Positions 11,603-16,312 of a stretch of 64,000 bases of DNA are shown in pieces. Every line of letters starts with the position of its first letter. Position 1 is the stretch's first letter. Below the pieces are notes generated by a model. It was not told the origin of the DNA. It saw only the letters and a program-made list of their open reading frames with translations, and did no database searches. The DNA comes from an uncultured Arthrobacter sp. Its GTDB lineage: Bacteria > Actinomycetota > Actinomycetes > Actinomycetales > Micrococcaceae. The stretch spans positions 1 through 64,000 of the forward strand of contig NZ_CANLXP010000006.1 in NCBI RefSeq assembly GCF_947495145.1, read 5' to 3'. A program made the position numbers and the translations under genes.

Positions 11603-13303
11603 TCAGGTGGCGTCGATCGGGATGGTGCGTGTTGCGATCACAGCGCCCGTAATCCAGTCCTCCCAGTCGACGCGCAGGTAGTACCTGCCCGGTGTCGGCG
11701 GATGGAGCAGCATGTCGTACCGTTCAGCCGCACCGTACGCCAGCCTGCTTGTCATCAACGGGTACCCGGAGTCCTGGCAGCTGGGCGACGGCGCTCCCGG
11801 TACGGAGGTGTCCCGGAACGGACGTCCGTCATGGGAGATCAGCTCCGCAATCTTTGCTTCCGCCCCTGTGGCATCGGTGATGGTCACCATATTGGGTAGG
11901 TAGTTGGCATTCACCGTCCTCAGCAGCGTCGGCTTGCGGGTGCCGCCCGCAACGTTGGCGCGCAGGCTGGAAAGGCTCCACACCCGTTCCCTGCCTGCCG
12001 GACGCCGTGCCAGTTCACCGCCCAGCAGGTAGAAATGCCGAGGTTCGAACCGGTTGAGACCGGCGTCGTCCCCGGAGAGTCCGTCTGCGTGGTTCATCTC
12101 ATGCCAGCGAGGATCCACACAGTAGGGAGCGAACAGCGCCTCTGTCTCAATGTCATACTCCGGTCCGTCCACAAAAGCACGGCGAGCGCCAGGGCTCACG
12201 GGGTAGTCCGGGTGCACTACCGGATCGATCACCAGCGGCCCGAACATTCCCATCTGGACGTGGAGCGGCGTATTGACGTGGCAGTGATAGAAGTACGTCC
12301 CCGCAGCGCCGTAGTTGGGATCGCCGGGACGGCCCGCTTCGGGCTGCATCTGATAGGTGTATTGCCCGTCCACTTCGAAAGATGTGTGGCCCACCCCGTC
12401 GTTCCGCGGATCAGGTTCCATGCCATGCCAATGGATGGTGTGGGGGCCTTTGCTCGGGTGCACTGTGGCATGAAAGACCCTCCCCTCCTGGACCCGCAAC
12501 GTTGGCCCGGGGAAACCCCGCTCGTACCGTTCGTCCTCGAAGCTCCACATCTCGAACTCGGCGCCGTCGTCCATCACGAGGTCCCGGCTATGGACATCGA
12601 ACTCGACGGAGATAGCAGCCGCCTGGAGGAACTCCGTCACCGGGTCCTCCACCTCCAGTTGGTCCGAACTGAAGTCGACCTGGCTCTGGAACCGGTGGCT
12701 CAGCGTCGGCTCCGGTCCGACGACCGGGCCCGGCTGCTCGGTAGGTTCGGCTGTGGCCGACGGTTCTGCCGTTGTCGAAGGCTCTGCCGTCGTCGACGGA
12801 GTTCCCGACTCGGAGGGGGTCGCGCTGGCTGTGGCGGTTTCCGAGGCGGTCGCGGTGGCGGTGGCACTTGCAGACGCAGACGACGACGTCGCACTGGGCG
12901 TCGGCGAAGCACTCGGCTTCGTGGTCGCACTGGGTTTCGTGGTCGCACTGGGTTTCGTGGTTGCGCTCGGCTTCGTGGTCGCGCTGGGTTTCGTGGTCGC
13001 GCTGGGTTTCGTGGTCGCGCTGGGCTTCGCGCTCGGGCGGCGACGCCGACGCCGTTCCTCTTCCCGACGCCGTTCCTCTTCCCGACGTCGATCCGCCGCC
13101 TCCCGCCGTCGTTCTTCCTCCCGACGACGCTCCGCGGCTTCACGGCGCCGCCTGTCTTCCCTGCGACGCTCCGAGGCTTCCCGGCGACGTTCCGCTTCAC
13201 GCCGCCGCTCTTCATCCCGACGACGGCGCTCGTCGCGTTCCTGTGCTCTCTCGATCCCCCGGATGGAGCGGCGGTCGGTTCGTTTGCGGCTGAAGATACT
13301 CAC
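11603..13303 (-). CDS. Multicopper-oxidase-like protein with charged repeat N-terminus (subunit B of putative split enzyme)
   Basis: 566 aa; GTG start overlapping the upstream stop as GTGA. Residues 1 to about 90 are almost pure Arg/Glu/Ala, likely a long charged single helix. About 90-190 is Ser/Thr/Pro/Ala-rich with PSATTK repeats. The cupredoxin part has His288-Thr-Ile-His291-Trp-His293-Gly and His340-Cys341-His342, then His348 and Met351 or Met353. This gives a complete type 1 copper site and half of the trinuclear ligands. The second cupredoxin region near the C-terminus (GRYYLRVDWEDW) lacks any HxH pair, so the enzyme looks incomplete alone. No signal peptide or membrane segment is seen, odd for a copper oxidase. 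Third gene of the operon. Confidence 0.85.
   Translation of the reverse strand: MSIFSRKRTDRRSIRGIERAQERDERRRRDEERRREAERRREASERRREDRRRREAAERRREEERRREAADRRREEERRREEERRRRRRPSAKPSATTKPSATTKPSATTKPSATTKPSATTKPSATTKPSASPTPSATSSSASASATATATASETATASATPSESGTPSTTAEPSTTAEPSATAEPTEQPGPVVGPEPTLSHRFQSQVDFSSDQLEVEDPVTEFLQAAAISVEFDVHSRDLVMDDGAEFEMWSFEDERYERGFPGPTLRVQEGRVFHATVHPSKGPHTIHWHGMEPDPRNDGVGHTSFEVDGQYTYQMQPEAGRPGDPNYGAAGTYFYHCHVNTPLHVQMGMFGPLVIDPVVHPDYPVSPGARRAFVDGPEYDIETEALFAPYCVDPRWHEMNHADGLSGDDAGLNRFEPRHFYLLGGELARRPAGRERVWSLSSLRANVAGGTRKPTLLRTVNANYLPNMVTITDATGAEAKIAELISHDGRPFRDTSVPGAPSPSCQDSGYPLMTSRLAYGAAERYDMLLHPPTPGRYYLRVDWEDWITGAVIATRTIPIDAT
12910..13030 (-). repeat. In-frame 18-bp tandem repeats encoding PSATTK
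   Basis: About seven near-identical 18-bp units inside the multicopper-oxidase gene encode PSATTK-type hexapeptides, joining the charged helix to the cupredoxin domain. On the N-terminal side (about 13030-13260) there is a second, more irregular repeat of Arg/Glu codons. Confidence 0.9.
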
Positions 13304-14688
13304 GGCGTGGCTCCTGGGTTAGGGCCCTTCAAGGTCCAGTGGGCAACGAGGCCACCGGGGTACATACCTCCGGCGGCAGTCTGGGACGGCTCGGCGTGGC
13401 AGTGCATGGGGTAAACCCAGTCCGTGGTCCGGGCGAACCAGACGGGATCGATTGCGTCCGGCGGCCGCTTGATCGGGATGATGATGTCCTTGCGGTCCAT
13501 TGTTTCAAGTTCGACAACGTCTTCCCACTGCTGGAGGACCACATGGCCGTCGCTGTCCACATACCCTTCGTGCCGCGGCCAGTCCACGCCATTGCGGCGG
13601 ACGGTCCAGACATGATTCCCATGGAAGTGCATCTGATGGAAGACGATTCCCGGGTTGACGAGCCGCACCAACTGGCCGCCGCGAAGCGTCCCTGCCTCGG
13701 CTCCCTCACCGAACTGGCGTACGTCGAGCTGCCGGGGGTAGCCGGAGATCAGCGTCTCCTCCTCGGTGGCGAGGTTGACGGCGTCGTCGAACGTAATACC
13801 GAGCGATTCGAAACCGCTGCGCCCGTTCAACGTAAAGTAGCGGGGCACCGCCCTGGTTGTTGCCGGATTGACGGTCTGGCCCGAGGCTTCCATCGAAGCC
13901 CAGCGCGATTCCACCGCATGGGTGATCCACAGCCATTGCCGCTCGAACGTTGCACGGTCCTCGGCAATGTCCCACTGGTGCTCGGGATCCATCACCACCA
14001 GCACCCCGAACAGACCCAGCACCCGTTCAACCGGCGCGTTCGTCGGATCCGCGAAGATGTACGTCCCGGGCGGCGGGCAGGGGAAATCAAGGGTTGCCAC
14101 GGAGTCCGGAGCAATGGCGCCGGTGGTGAGGTCACCGCCGTCGGGCCCTGCTCCGAAAACCGTCAGGGTGTGGGGCTTGCTCAACCGGTTCTGGATGCGC
14201 AGCCGGATTTCACTTCCCAGCTCGGCGATGATTGTCCGCTGTGGGAAGTAGCTCGCCCAGTAGTTGCGGCGGATAAAGTACTGGCCGGGGTTGGCCTCGT
14301 CGGCCCGCAGCGGCTCGGGCGTGCCGCGGGGAGGTACAGCGGCATCGAGCGGATACGTGCGGCTGGGAACCACGTCACCCGTAGCGGTGATGACGGTCGG
14401 ATCCATGGTGAGGCTTGGATCCGGATCGTCGACGTCGGTAGGCCGGCTGCCGAACCCGCGGTGGTAAACAAGCGTGTCGTCGACCATCTTCAGGTAGCCC
14501 TCATTGATGTAGACGTCCAGCACACCGGGCAACGCAGCGAGCGCCAACGGAATCGGCGTCCGCGCAGCCCGTTGACTCGGAGCAGAGGGCTGAATCAGCG
14601 GCAACGCCGCAAACCCCAACCCGGCAGCCGCGCCGAGCTTGAGGAGATCCCCTCGGGCCAGTATCTCGGGAGGCAACTGCTCAGCCAT
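13300..14688 (-). CDS. Multicopper-oxidase-like protein (subunit A of putative split enzyme)
   Basis: 462 aa from ATG 14688, which overlaps the upstream stop by 8 bases (ATGGCTGA). The N-terminus resembles a Tat signal (ARGDLLKLG followed by a hydrophobic stretch) but has Arg-Gly where the twin Arg should be. The first cupredoxin region (KPHTLTVFG, then GTYIFADPTNAP) has lost the HxH ligands expected of domain 1. The last domain keeps His351-Gln-Met-His354-Phe-His356-Gly and His429-Cys430-His431. The type 1 His that should follow HCH is missing (AEPSQTAAGGM). It therefore supplies one half of a trinuclear cluster, complementary to the next gene, which it overlaps by 4 bases. Confidence 0.87.
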   Translation of the reverse strand: MAEQLPPEILARGDLLKLGAAAGLGFAALPLIQPSAPSQRAARTPIPLALAALPGVLDVYINEGYLKMVDDTLVYHRGFGSRPTDVDDPDPSLTMDPTVITATGDVVPSRTYPLDAAVPPRGTPEPLRADEANPGQYFIRRNYWASYFPQRTIIAELGSEIRLRIQNRLSKPHTLTVFGAGPDGGDLTTGAIAPDSVATLDFPCPPPGTYIFADPTNAPVERVLGLFGVLVVMDPEHQWDIAEDRATFERQWLWITHAVESRWASMEASGQTVNPATTRAVPRYFTLNGRSGFESLGITFDDAVNLATEEETLISGYPRQLDVRQFGEGAEAGTLRGGQLVRLVNPGIVFHQMHFHGNHVWTVRRNGVDWPRHEGYVDSDGHVVLQQWEDVVELETMDRKDIIIPIKRPPDAIDPVWFARTTDWVYPMHCHAEPSQTAAGGMYPGGLVAHWTLKGPNPGATP

Positions 14689-15307
14689 GGTTGTCCTCCA
14701 GGGAGCCGGGTCGAAGGGATATCCGGGGAAGTGCCAGCGCCAGCGGAGCCGGGCCACCCCACGGGTCGGTGAATTGGGCTGCGAGGCCGGAGACGCCGCT
14801 CGGAACCAGGAAGCTGATCCAGAGGCTGCGGAGTGCGCCGGCGGTCAGCAGGATCTTGGAGACGTCGGCTGCGCGGTTGGTGACCGTCGTCGTGTCGCTG
14901 ACAAGCAGGCGCAATTGCCCGGGCGCGAACAGCACATTGCGCTCTGAGGTGTTGCGGACGTCGAGCTTCACGGCCAGGTGTTCGCCCCAGGTGTGGTTGA
15001 ACGGTTGGGCCGAGGCGCCGGGCGGAGCGGCGCCGTGGCCTGCGCTACTTGCGTGACCGCCGACTGCACCGCCCATGCGGGCCTGCCGTTCGGCGGCTGC
15101 AATCCGTACGGTTCCGAACGACGTCGGAACCTCCTCGGTGCCACCGGCGGCGGAGACTATCCCCCAGCCCGCTGCGGTGCCCAGTGCACCGGTGCCTATC
15201 AAAATGCCAAATACTCGTCGCGTGAGTCCGATGGGACGGTCGGCTGCCTCCCCAGGCATTAGGTCAGCCGCATCCTGCTCGGCCAGCGCGATATTTTCTA
15301 TCGCCAT
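14681..15307 (-). CDS. Membrane-anchored accessory protein of the multicopper-oxidase operon
   Basis: 208 aa, no recognised enzyme. A cytosolic N-terminus of about 27 aa is followed by LTRRVFGILIG, a Tat-like or membrane-anchor segment (about 28-55), a Gly/His/Ala-rich linker (GGHASSAGHGAAPPG), then a beta-rich domain (FNHTWGEHLAVKLDVRNTS) reminiscent of DUF4352/telokin-like folds. It is first in the operon and overlaps the next gene by 8 bases, so it likely works with the two oxidase-like proteins, perhaps as anchor, export partner or copper carrier. That role is inference from context. Confidence 0.7.
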   Translation of the reverse strand: MAIENIALAEQDAADLMPGEAADRPIGLTRRVFGILIGTGALGTAAGWGIVSAAGGTEEVPTSFGTVRIAAAERQARMGGAVGGHASSAGHGAAPPGASAQPFNHTWGEHLAVKLDVRNTSERNVLFAPGQLRLLVSDTTTVTNRAADVSKILLTAGALRSLWISFLVPSGVSGLAAQFTDPWGGPAPLALALPRISLRPGSLEDNHG

Positions 15308-15421
15308 TACTCGCCTCTATATCGTGCGTGGATGCTGCAGGAATTCAGTGTTATCTCCAGACCTTGGGGAAACCCTGCATGGGAAACCGTCACGGATTTC
15401 ACCGCCGGCGCCCCGAGCGCC

Positions 15422-15427
15422 GATACT
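15422..15427 (+). promoter_or_regulatory. Leaderless -10 box, GATACT
   Basis: GATACT lies exactly 6 nt before the GTG at 15434 and supports that start for the HAD gene over the upstream in-frame ATG at 15332. Confidence 0.5.
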
Positions 15428-15433
15428 GGGTCG

Positions 15434-16312
15434 GTGACAACTTCTGCCCCCGAATCCGCTCCCATCGGCCTGCTGCTCGACGTCGACGGGCCGGTTGCCA
15501 GCCCCGTTTCGCGAACCGTACGGCGGGAGATCATTGATGCGCTCATCGCCCTGGCTGCGGCCGGATGGCCGGTCATCTTCAACACCGGGCGGTCGGACGA
15601 GTTCATCCGGAAAGAAGTCATGCAGCCGATGCTGGCCGCCGGCATTCCCGCGGGCATCACTTTCCATGCCATCTGCGAGAAGGGCGCCACCTGGTTCAGC
15701 TTCACCTCCGACGGCCCTACCGATGTCCAGGTCGATGATGCCCTCGCGCTCCCGGAAGAGTTTGGAAACGAGGTGCGGCGCCTGGTCGAGGACAAGTTCG
15801 CCGACCACATGTTCTTCGACGAGACCAAGCGCGCCATGGTGTCCATCGAACAGCGCCTCGACGTCGGGAACGAGGATTATCTCGACCGGCAGGGGCCCTT
15901 CGACGCCGCAGTACTCGAGATCATGCAGCACTTCGACATGGGCGTCTGCCGCCTCGCGCACCACCTGCCGGACAGTGACGACAGCGTCGACTACCGGGTG
16001 GATCCCACCATCATCTCCACCGACATCGAATCGGTCCGCGTGGGCAAGGACCTCGGCGCGGAGCGGGCGCTGCGCCTGATTGACGGCGACATTCCGCACG
16101 TCTGGCGGACCGTCGGTGACTCGCGAACCGACTACGCCATGGCTGACTACCTGCACGAGCACGGTTACAGCGTTGCCCACGTCGATGTGCGGCCCGCCGA
16201 CGGCGTCCCGGAGAAGCCCTACCCTGTCCTCACCGAAGGTGAACTGACCCACGACGACGCCGGCGCAGCCTTCCTGCTGCGCTGCGCAGAAACGGCGGTC
16301 TCCCCCGCCTAA
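15434..16312 (+). CDS. HAD-superfamily hydrolase, likely phosphatase
   Basis: 292 aa from GTG 15434. HAD motif I is LLLDVDG (nucleophile Asp and general-acid Asp), motif II is IFNTGRS, and motif IV is VGDSRTDYAM near the end. The large central cap resembles sucrose-phosphatase or Cof-type enzymes. Predicted Mg2+-dependent cytosolic phosphatase; the substrate cannot be read from the sequence. Its TAA overlaps the TAG of the convergent glutathione peroxidase gene, so the two 3' ends share 4 bases. Confidence 0.82.
   Translation: MTTSAPESAPIGLLLDVDGPVASPVSRTVRREIIDALIALAAAGWPVIFNTGRSDEFIRKEVMQPMLAAGIPAGITFHAICEKGATWFSFTSDGPTDVQVDDALALPEEFGNEVRRLVEDKFADHMFFDETKRAMVSIEQRLDVGNEDYLDRQGPFDAAVLEIMQHFDMGVCRLAHHLPDSDDSVDYRVDPTIISTDIESVRVGKDLGAERALRLIDGDIPHVWRTVGDSRTDYAMADYLHEHGYSVAHVDVRPADGVPEKPYPVLTEGELTHDDAGAAFLLRCAETAVSPA

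Follow-up and report, generated by a model that had tools for sequence, protein, structure and literature searches.

A candidate two-subunit multicopper oxidase with divided copper ligands in an uncultured Arthrobacter

On the minus strand of a 64,000-nucleotide stretch of DNA from an uncultured Arthrobacter sp. (contig NZ_CANLXP010000006.1, positions 1 to 64,000; hereafter the window), three overlapping genes follow one another in the order M, A and B (Table 1). In this report, we propose that proteins A and B are very probably two subunits of one multicopper oxidase, sharing one trinuclear copper cluster and one type 1 copper site; the proposal is built on sequence comparison and on the model of a natural A-B fusion. 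A first-pass annotation had described the locus as a split oxidase forming an obligate heteromer. Its coordinates, reading frames and 4- and 8-base overlaps were accurate. It also placed a membrane-anchored partner first; this is M, a gene with a twin-arginine translocation (Tat) signal and a hydrophobic segment.

The locus and its divided copper ligands

Table 1. Features of the M-A-B locus (window positions)
Feature	Position	Strand	Remarks
Gene M	14681-15307	minus	208-aa frame
Gene A	13300-14688	minus	462 aa, ATG start
Gene B	11603-13303	minus	566 aa, GTG start
M stop/A start overlap	14681-14688	minus	8 bases
A stop/B start overlap	13300-13303	minus	4 bases
B N-terminal extension	12722-13303	minus	about 195 aa; R/E-rich, then K-P-S-A-T-T repeats

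Both A and B match a multicopper oxidase family in Pfam, and each comprises two cupredoxin-type domains. In B, the first domain carries HTIHWHG, which starts at H288, and HCH at 340-342, with H348, M351 and M353 after it. Four of these residues (H291, H293, H340 and H342) amount to half a trinuclear site, and H288, C341 and H348, with M353 or M351 as the axial ligand, to a type 1 site; no copper motif was found in the second domain. In A, it is the first domain that is devoid of copper motifs. The second domain holds HQMHFHGNH from H351 and HCH at 429-431, and with them the other half of a trinuclear site (H354, H356, H429 and H431); E433 lies in this domain too. H351 and C430 persist in A as type 1 remnants, and Thr stands at 437 in place of the second type 1 His. 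The assignment of His residues to coppers follows family knowledge and the alignment with 2zwn. The first-pass annotation had located the motifs of both proteins at these same residues, to which we add M351 and M353 of B, and it had recognized the loss of the first-domain pairs from A and the bare second domain of B. Its central observation likewise stands: the eight trinuclear His and the type 1 His2Cys set of a multicopper oxidase are supplied jointly by A and B. Against the NirK model TIGR02376 (equivalog cut-off 296.3 bits), B scored just 34.6 bits and A 14.9 bits.

A is present once in the genome from which the window derives. The ratio of nonsynonymous to synonymous substitution (dN/dS) against two congeners is 0.07-0.11 in A; in the core of B it is 0.06-0.07. 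The Pfam matches, these low ratios and the recurrence of the ligand pattern in the 83 A and 79 B loci described below argue that the pattern is more than chance.

Conservation of the ligands and relation to known oxidases

Our survey comprised 83 A loci (the window included) and 79 B loci, many of them from metagenome-assembled genomes; individual loci are cited by L numbers. A pattern search contributed 80 survey loci, the best 80 of 92 confirmed, and a whole-protein search of 197 genomes of the family added another 42 loci from Micrococcaceae, many of them in the same genomes. The four trinuclear-type His of A are invariant (83/83), as is E433. The type 1 remnants of A have drifted: position 430 is Cys in 65 loci and is replaced in 18 (Gly in nine, Asp in eight, Ser in one), position 351 is His in 74, Asp in eight and Asn in one, and the second type 1 His is missing from all 83. 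In B, H340, C341, H342 and H348 occur in all 79 loci and H288, H291 and H293 in 78, the single exception being L120, a broken fusion whose frame is disrupted; the axial position 353 varies (Met in 57, Leu in 22). The same motifs recur in the 42 Micrococcaceae loci wherever the respective parts are present, except for the first B motif in the frame-broken L063. Further HxH strings occur in 22 of the 83 A and six of the 79 B proteins, and by eye none forms a second half-site. The first-pass annotation had called for a survey of homologues for reciprocal loss; no separate A or B with both half-sites turned up among the 83 A and 79 B loci, and the two are united in one chain only in A-B fusions. 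A site built from two proteins predicts selection on the trinuclear half of A and on both sites of B, which matches the observed conservation and the drift of the type 1 remnants in A.

Acidic residues also stand beside the half-sites, E433 in A (83/83) and D302 in B (78/79). We take these to be, possibly, the proton-relay acids of other oxidases.

The profiles of A and B align with each other (97.8, E 6.7e-13), the motif-less first domain of A falling onto the live first domain of B; judged by this alignment, the two proteins are paralogous. B lies closest to 2zwn and 3g5w, which we take to be type C two-domain oxidases, as the HCHVN motif in their first domain fits. Built into a profile, the second domain of A aligns with domain 2 of 2zwn, HxxHxHG and H-D-H included; used as a single-sequence query, the same domain returned nothing relevant from the Protein Data Bank. 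In two-domain oxidases, each trinuclear site draws its His from two protomers, one contributing those of its domain 1 and its neighbour those of domain 2 (PMC13151041). Taken with the 2zwn alignments, this arrangement suggests that the halves retained by A and B are the ones that meet at such an interface. Like the type C enzymes, B has a type 1 site and half a trinuclear site in its first domain, and A has the second half-site, without a type 1 site, in its second. The differences are that type C chains carry both half-sites and are described as homotrimers, whereas here the halves lie on two gene products, and that A and B, unlike type C chains, each have one motif-less domain.

Three-domain laccases, CueO and CotA follow the same logic of eight His and a type 1 site, with all ligands in one chain and the type 1 site in the last domain. 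B aligns with CueO residues 43-322. Multicopper oxidases are described with two, three or six domains, the two-domain ones being trimeric (PMC13151041, PMC3600357). The POXA3 laccases of Pleurotus resemble A+B in having two different chains; there, however, the large subunit by itself constitutes the laccase, and the other chain is a small protein (PMC3129051).

The three-dimensional arrangement was approached through a natural A-B fusion of 779 amino acids from Arthrobacter hankyongi (L165), for which AlphaFold2 returned a mean predicted local distance difference test score (pLDDT) of 92.6 and a predicted template modelling score (pTM) of 0.93. In the folding alignment, distant A rows were given as domain-2 pieces with the motif register checked, and those of L089, L090, L095, L099, L110 and L162 were left out. 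The best whole-chain Foldseek matches of this model were factor V, MnxG, ceruloplasmin and factor VIII (query TM-score, TMq, 0.40-0.48); 3g5w reached 0.28 and three-domain laccases about 0.24-0.30. Ceruloplasmin, MnxG and factors V and VIII are built of tandem two-domain units, an arrangement that the A-B fusion may share; ceruloplasmin and MnxG have six cupredoxin domains and the fusion four, with TMq just 0.40-0.48. An A placed far away would leave the score near the level of B alone, which suggests that A sits in the model like a neighbouring two-domain unit, perhaps within about ten angstroms. A separate model of the interface piece (A domain 2 with B domain 1 of L165) was too poor (pLDDT 70, pTM 0.62) for its fold searches to be admitted as evidence; one gave a TMq of 0.43 for factor V, 0.34-0.35 for ceruloplasmin and about 0.24 for single-domain matches, and in the other the rows span the B domain.

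Pairing, fusion and alternative explanations

Strong matches to A and strong matches to B fall in the same 24 of the 197 family genomes; weak A matches (nine of 33 genomes in one search, five of seven in another) were taken as ordinary oxidases and not counted. The 83 survey loci comprise 23 A-B fusions, 56 loci with A and B on separate frames (L120 among them) and four with A alone, two of which (L091 and L102) stop at contig ends. Patristic distances in the A and B trees, from which L120 was excluded, correlate at 0.975 (78 loci; not reached in any of 1000 permutations), which is what linkage of the two genes would lead one to expect. By record titles the loci span about nine phyla, in Pseudomonadota, Bdellovibrio, Chloroflexi, Nitrospirae, Desulfuromonadales, Armatimonadetes, Actinomycetota, Bacillus and Phycisphaerae. 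Ligand conservation, co-occurrence in genomes, natural fusions and homology to the matching type C halves all argue for a heteromer, as the first-pass annotation had held. That the heteromer is obligate, as it had also held, is not supported, given copies of A without B and one copy of B without A.

Those copies are among several points that weigh against a shared site. A lacks B in five of the 42 Micrococcaceae loci (one of these, L071, is frame-broken, and another, L066, resembles the fusion clade); plasmid pTC1 (L073, 5641-7221) carries M and A, with no B within 13 kb; and a lone B lies at L166:4522-5688 on a 9-kb contig of a genome whose other contigs carry A-B loci. For H354, H356 and H359, conservation is partly built in, as one search pattern contains HGNH; H429, H431, E433 and every B ligand lie outside the search patterns. 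On the structural side, the six-domain Foldseek matches are loose (root-mean-square deviation 8.9-14.1 angstroms), six-domain chains are absent from the 50 rows listed by VIA-align, and the interface piece folded poorly, as described above. Two further points, concerning export and a copper chaperone, are given below.

Of the A copies without a detectable B nearby (L044, L045, L049, L071, L066 and pTC1), several lie in metal-related surroundings (P-type ATPase, DUF305, MntH); in L044, L045 and L049 the neighbour is a P-type ATPase with a cupredoxin domain.

The solitary copies would be natural if A and B formed separate homotrimers, with B acting in electron transfer through its type 1 copper and bearing a half-occupied site, and A serving for copper storage or in the manner of a chaperone. 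Both proteins are indeed related to families with homotrimeric members, such as two-domain oxidases and nitrite reductases. This explanation is nevertheless improbable, given the natural fusions, the shared genome distribution and the invariance of the trinuclear His in both proteins while the type 1 remnants of A drift.

The fusions bear on the direction of change. All 28 non-actinobacterial loci with both genes are unfused, and in both FastTree trees (considered for topology only, without support values) the fusions sit within Actinomycetota, where the early branches L111, L126 and L115 are unfused as well. The two-gene form thus looks ancestral and the fusion derived, and the term "split" used in the first-pass annotation probably has the direction wrong. 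Were the pair instead the product of a recent split, a single-chain ancestor broken into two frames in this lineage would be reassembling from its pieces. In favour of this, fusions are common in the same family, and the B extension is made of repeats and varies. In both trees, moreover, the unfused L148 clusters with the fused L163-L165, so that at least one change went in the opposite direction or occurred twice. Fused L127 (Terracoccus) groups with unfused L116, and these two groupings together imply more than one change of fusion state. Set against the uniformly unfused pairs outside Actinomycetota and on its early branches, a recent split is quite unlikely; the pair seems instead to go back to an ancient duplication followed by reciprocal loss, with fusion coming later. 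That the pair is simply decaying and its motifs are leftovers is very unlikely, given the dN/dS of 0.06-0.11 for A and the B core and the intact ligands of the window, even with frame-broken copies elsewhere (L060, L063/L120, L068, L071 and L072).

Export, surroundings and the proposed enzyme

M begins with a Tat signal (LTRRVFGILIGTGALG...) with a hydrophobic segment, followed by a domain weakly like DUF4352 (E 0.0058, below the family cut-off), and we propose it as an export and anchor partner. Outside the window, phmmer found an M homologue in 31 of 82 surveyed loci, and M carries a signal of the twin-arginine (RR) type in 30 of 32 cases, or in 29 of 32 if reading is confined to the sequence adjoining the match. 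In the window, A starts with a Tat-like segment that has a single Arg (a GTG upstream of its ATG would give a product of 485 amino acids), and no signal peptide was found in B. Outside Actinomycetota, A itself has the Tat signal in 29 of 30 loci, of which a script recognized 26 and inspection by eye three; the thirtieth A is cut by a contig end. Among unfused actinobacterial A, the script found RR in only five of 30, that of L118 being spurious; most of the others retain the hydrophobic segment behind SRW, ARG, GRW or NRA, and L125 retains RRW. In L116 and L158 the situation is reversed, with RR on A and not on M. No separate B has a hydrophobic signal (0/56). The pattern of a hitchhiker, in which one partner has a Tat signal and the other has none, is thus present in the window and in most unfused loci, and these signals are best read as a single Tat signal serving the whole complex. 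Against this stand 12 of the 23 fusions (L121, L135-L137, L140, L142-L144, L146, L152, L155 and L159), which have neither a signal of their own nor, by phmmer, an M; L143 lies at a contig end. The single-signal reading does not explain them.

Neighbouring genes in other loci fit a copper enzyme and name no substrate. SCO1, of a copper chaperone family, follows B in L075, L086-L090 and L104; to be counted against the proposal, it is missing after B in L076 although room exists. CopC and CopD lie downstream in Bacillus sp. EB01, and a CusB-type gene lies upstream in L110. MntH adjoins A in two plasmids, one of which also has a metal-dependent regulator; among the other loci scanned MntH occurs only in L049, and a reading as Mn oxidase was therefore not adopted. 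Skermanella aerolata has five A-B-SCO1 copies in a single genome (L086-L090). In the window itself, the genes flanking M-A-B (malate synthase, DsbA-like, LytR_C and VapB-like proteins, glutathione peroxidase, an mpaB-type oxygenase and a desaturase) indicate no pathway. A 326-amino-acid frame at 15332-16309, without a Pfam match, adjoins M in divergent orientation.

The 4-base A/B overlap recurs in nine of 17 intact split Micrococcaceae loci, with starts chosen automatically. The B extension contains tandem repeats (window positions 12888-13210), an 18-bp unit repeated 6.2 times (K-P-S-A-T-T) and a 39-bp unit repeated 3.9 times (R/E-rich). Its length is highly variable across Micrococcaceae, and it is nearly gone in L033 (= L134), L060 and L072.

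We infer complex formation, copper binding, the electron path and export, and the proposed enzyme would work as follows. The first domain of B would hold the type 1 copper (H288, C341, H348 and the axial Met) and four trinuclear His, and the second domain of A would supply the other four. An electron would enter at the type 1 copper of B and pass through its His-Cys-His to the trinuclear cluster. That cluster would lie at the interface of A and B and reduce O2; the substrate may be a metal ion or phenols. The complex would probably fold in the cytoplasm and leave by Tat on the signal of one partner, presumably A in most phyla and M in Micrococcaceae. A and B would trace back to the duplication of a two-domain oxidase of type C, each copy having dropped the half kept by the other.

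The enzyme type is known; its heteromeric construction appears to be new within the open-access literature searched, where full-text searches showed, among the matches listed, no heteromeric oxidase of the A+B kind and only fungal heterodimers of the POXA3 type. We know of no oxidase activity of A or B alone. On balance we consider it probable that such pairs constitute an undescribed, ancient class of heteromeric oxidases in about nine phyla, which arose by duplication of a homotrimeric enzyme and reciprocal loss of half-sites, was fused later, represents an evolutionary intermediate, and is exported on a single Tat signal that moved from A to M in the lineage of the window. Within that class, fusion would have taken place in Micrococcaceae and their relatives and perhaps separately in Terracoccus.

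If this is true, annotation by complete motif sets overlooks such enzymes. In existing records, both genes of a split pair on one plasmid are annotated "multicopper oxidase domain-containing protein", and in another record A is labelled "hypothetical protein". The class would further fill a place that models of multicopper oxidase evolution require, that of an intermediate leading from homotrimers to multi-domain chains, and, thanks to the living one-chain fusions, the step from homotrimer to multi-domain oxidase would become directly testable.

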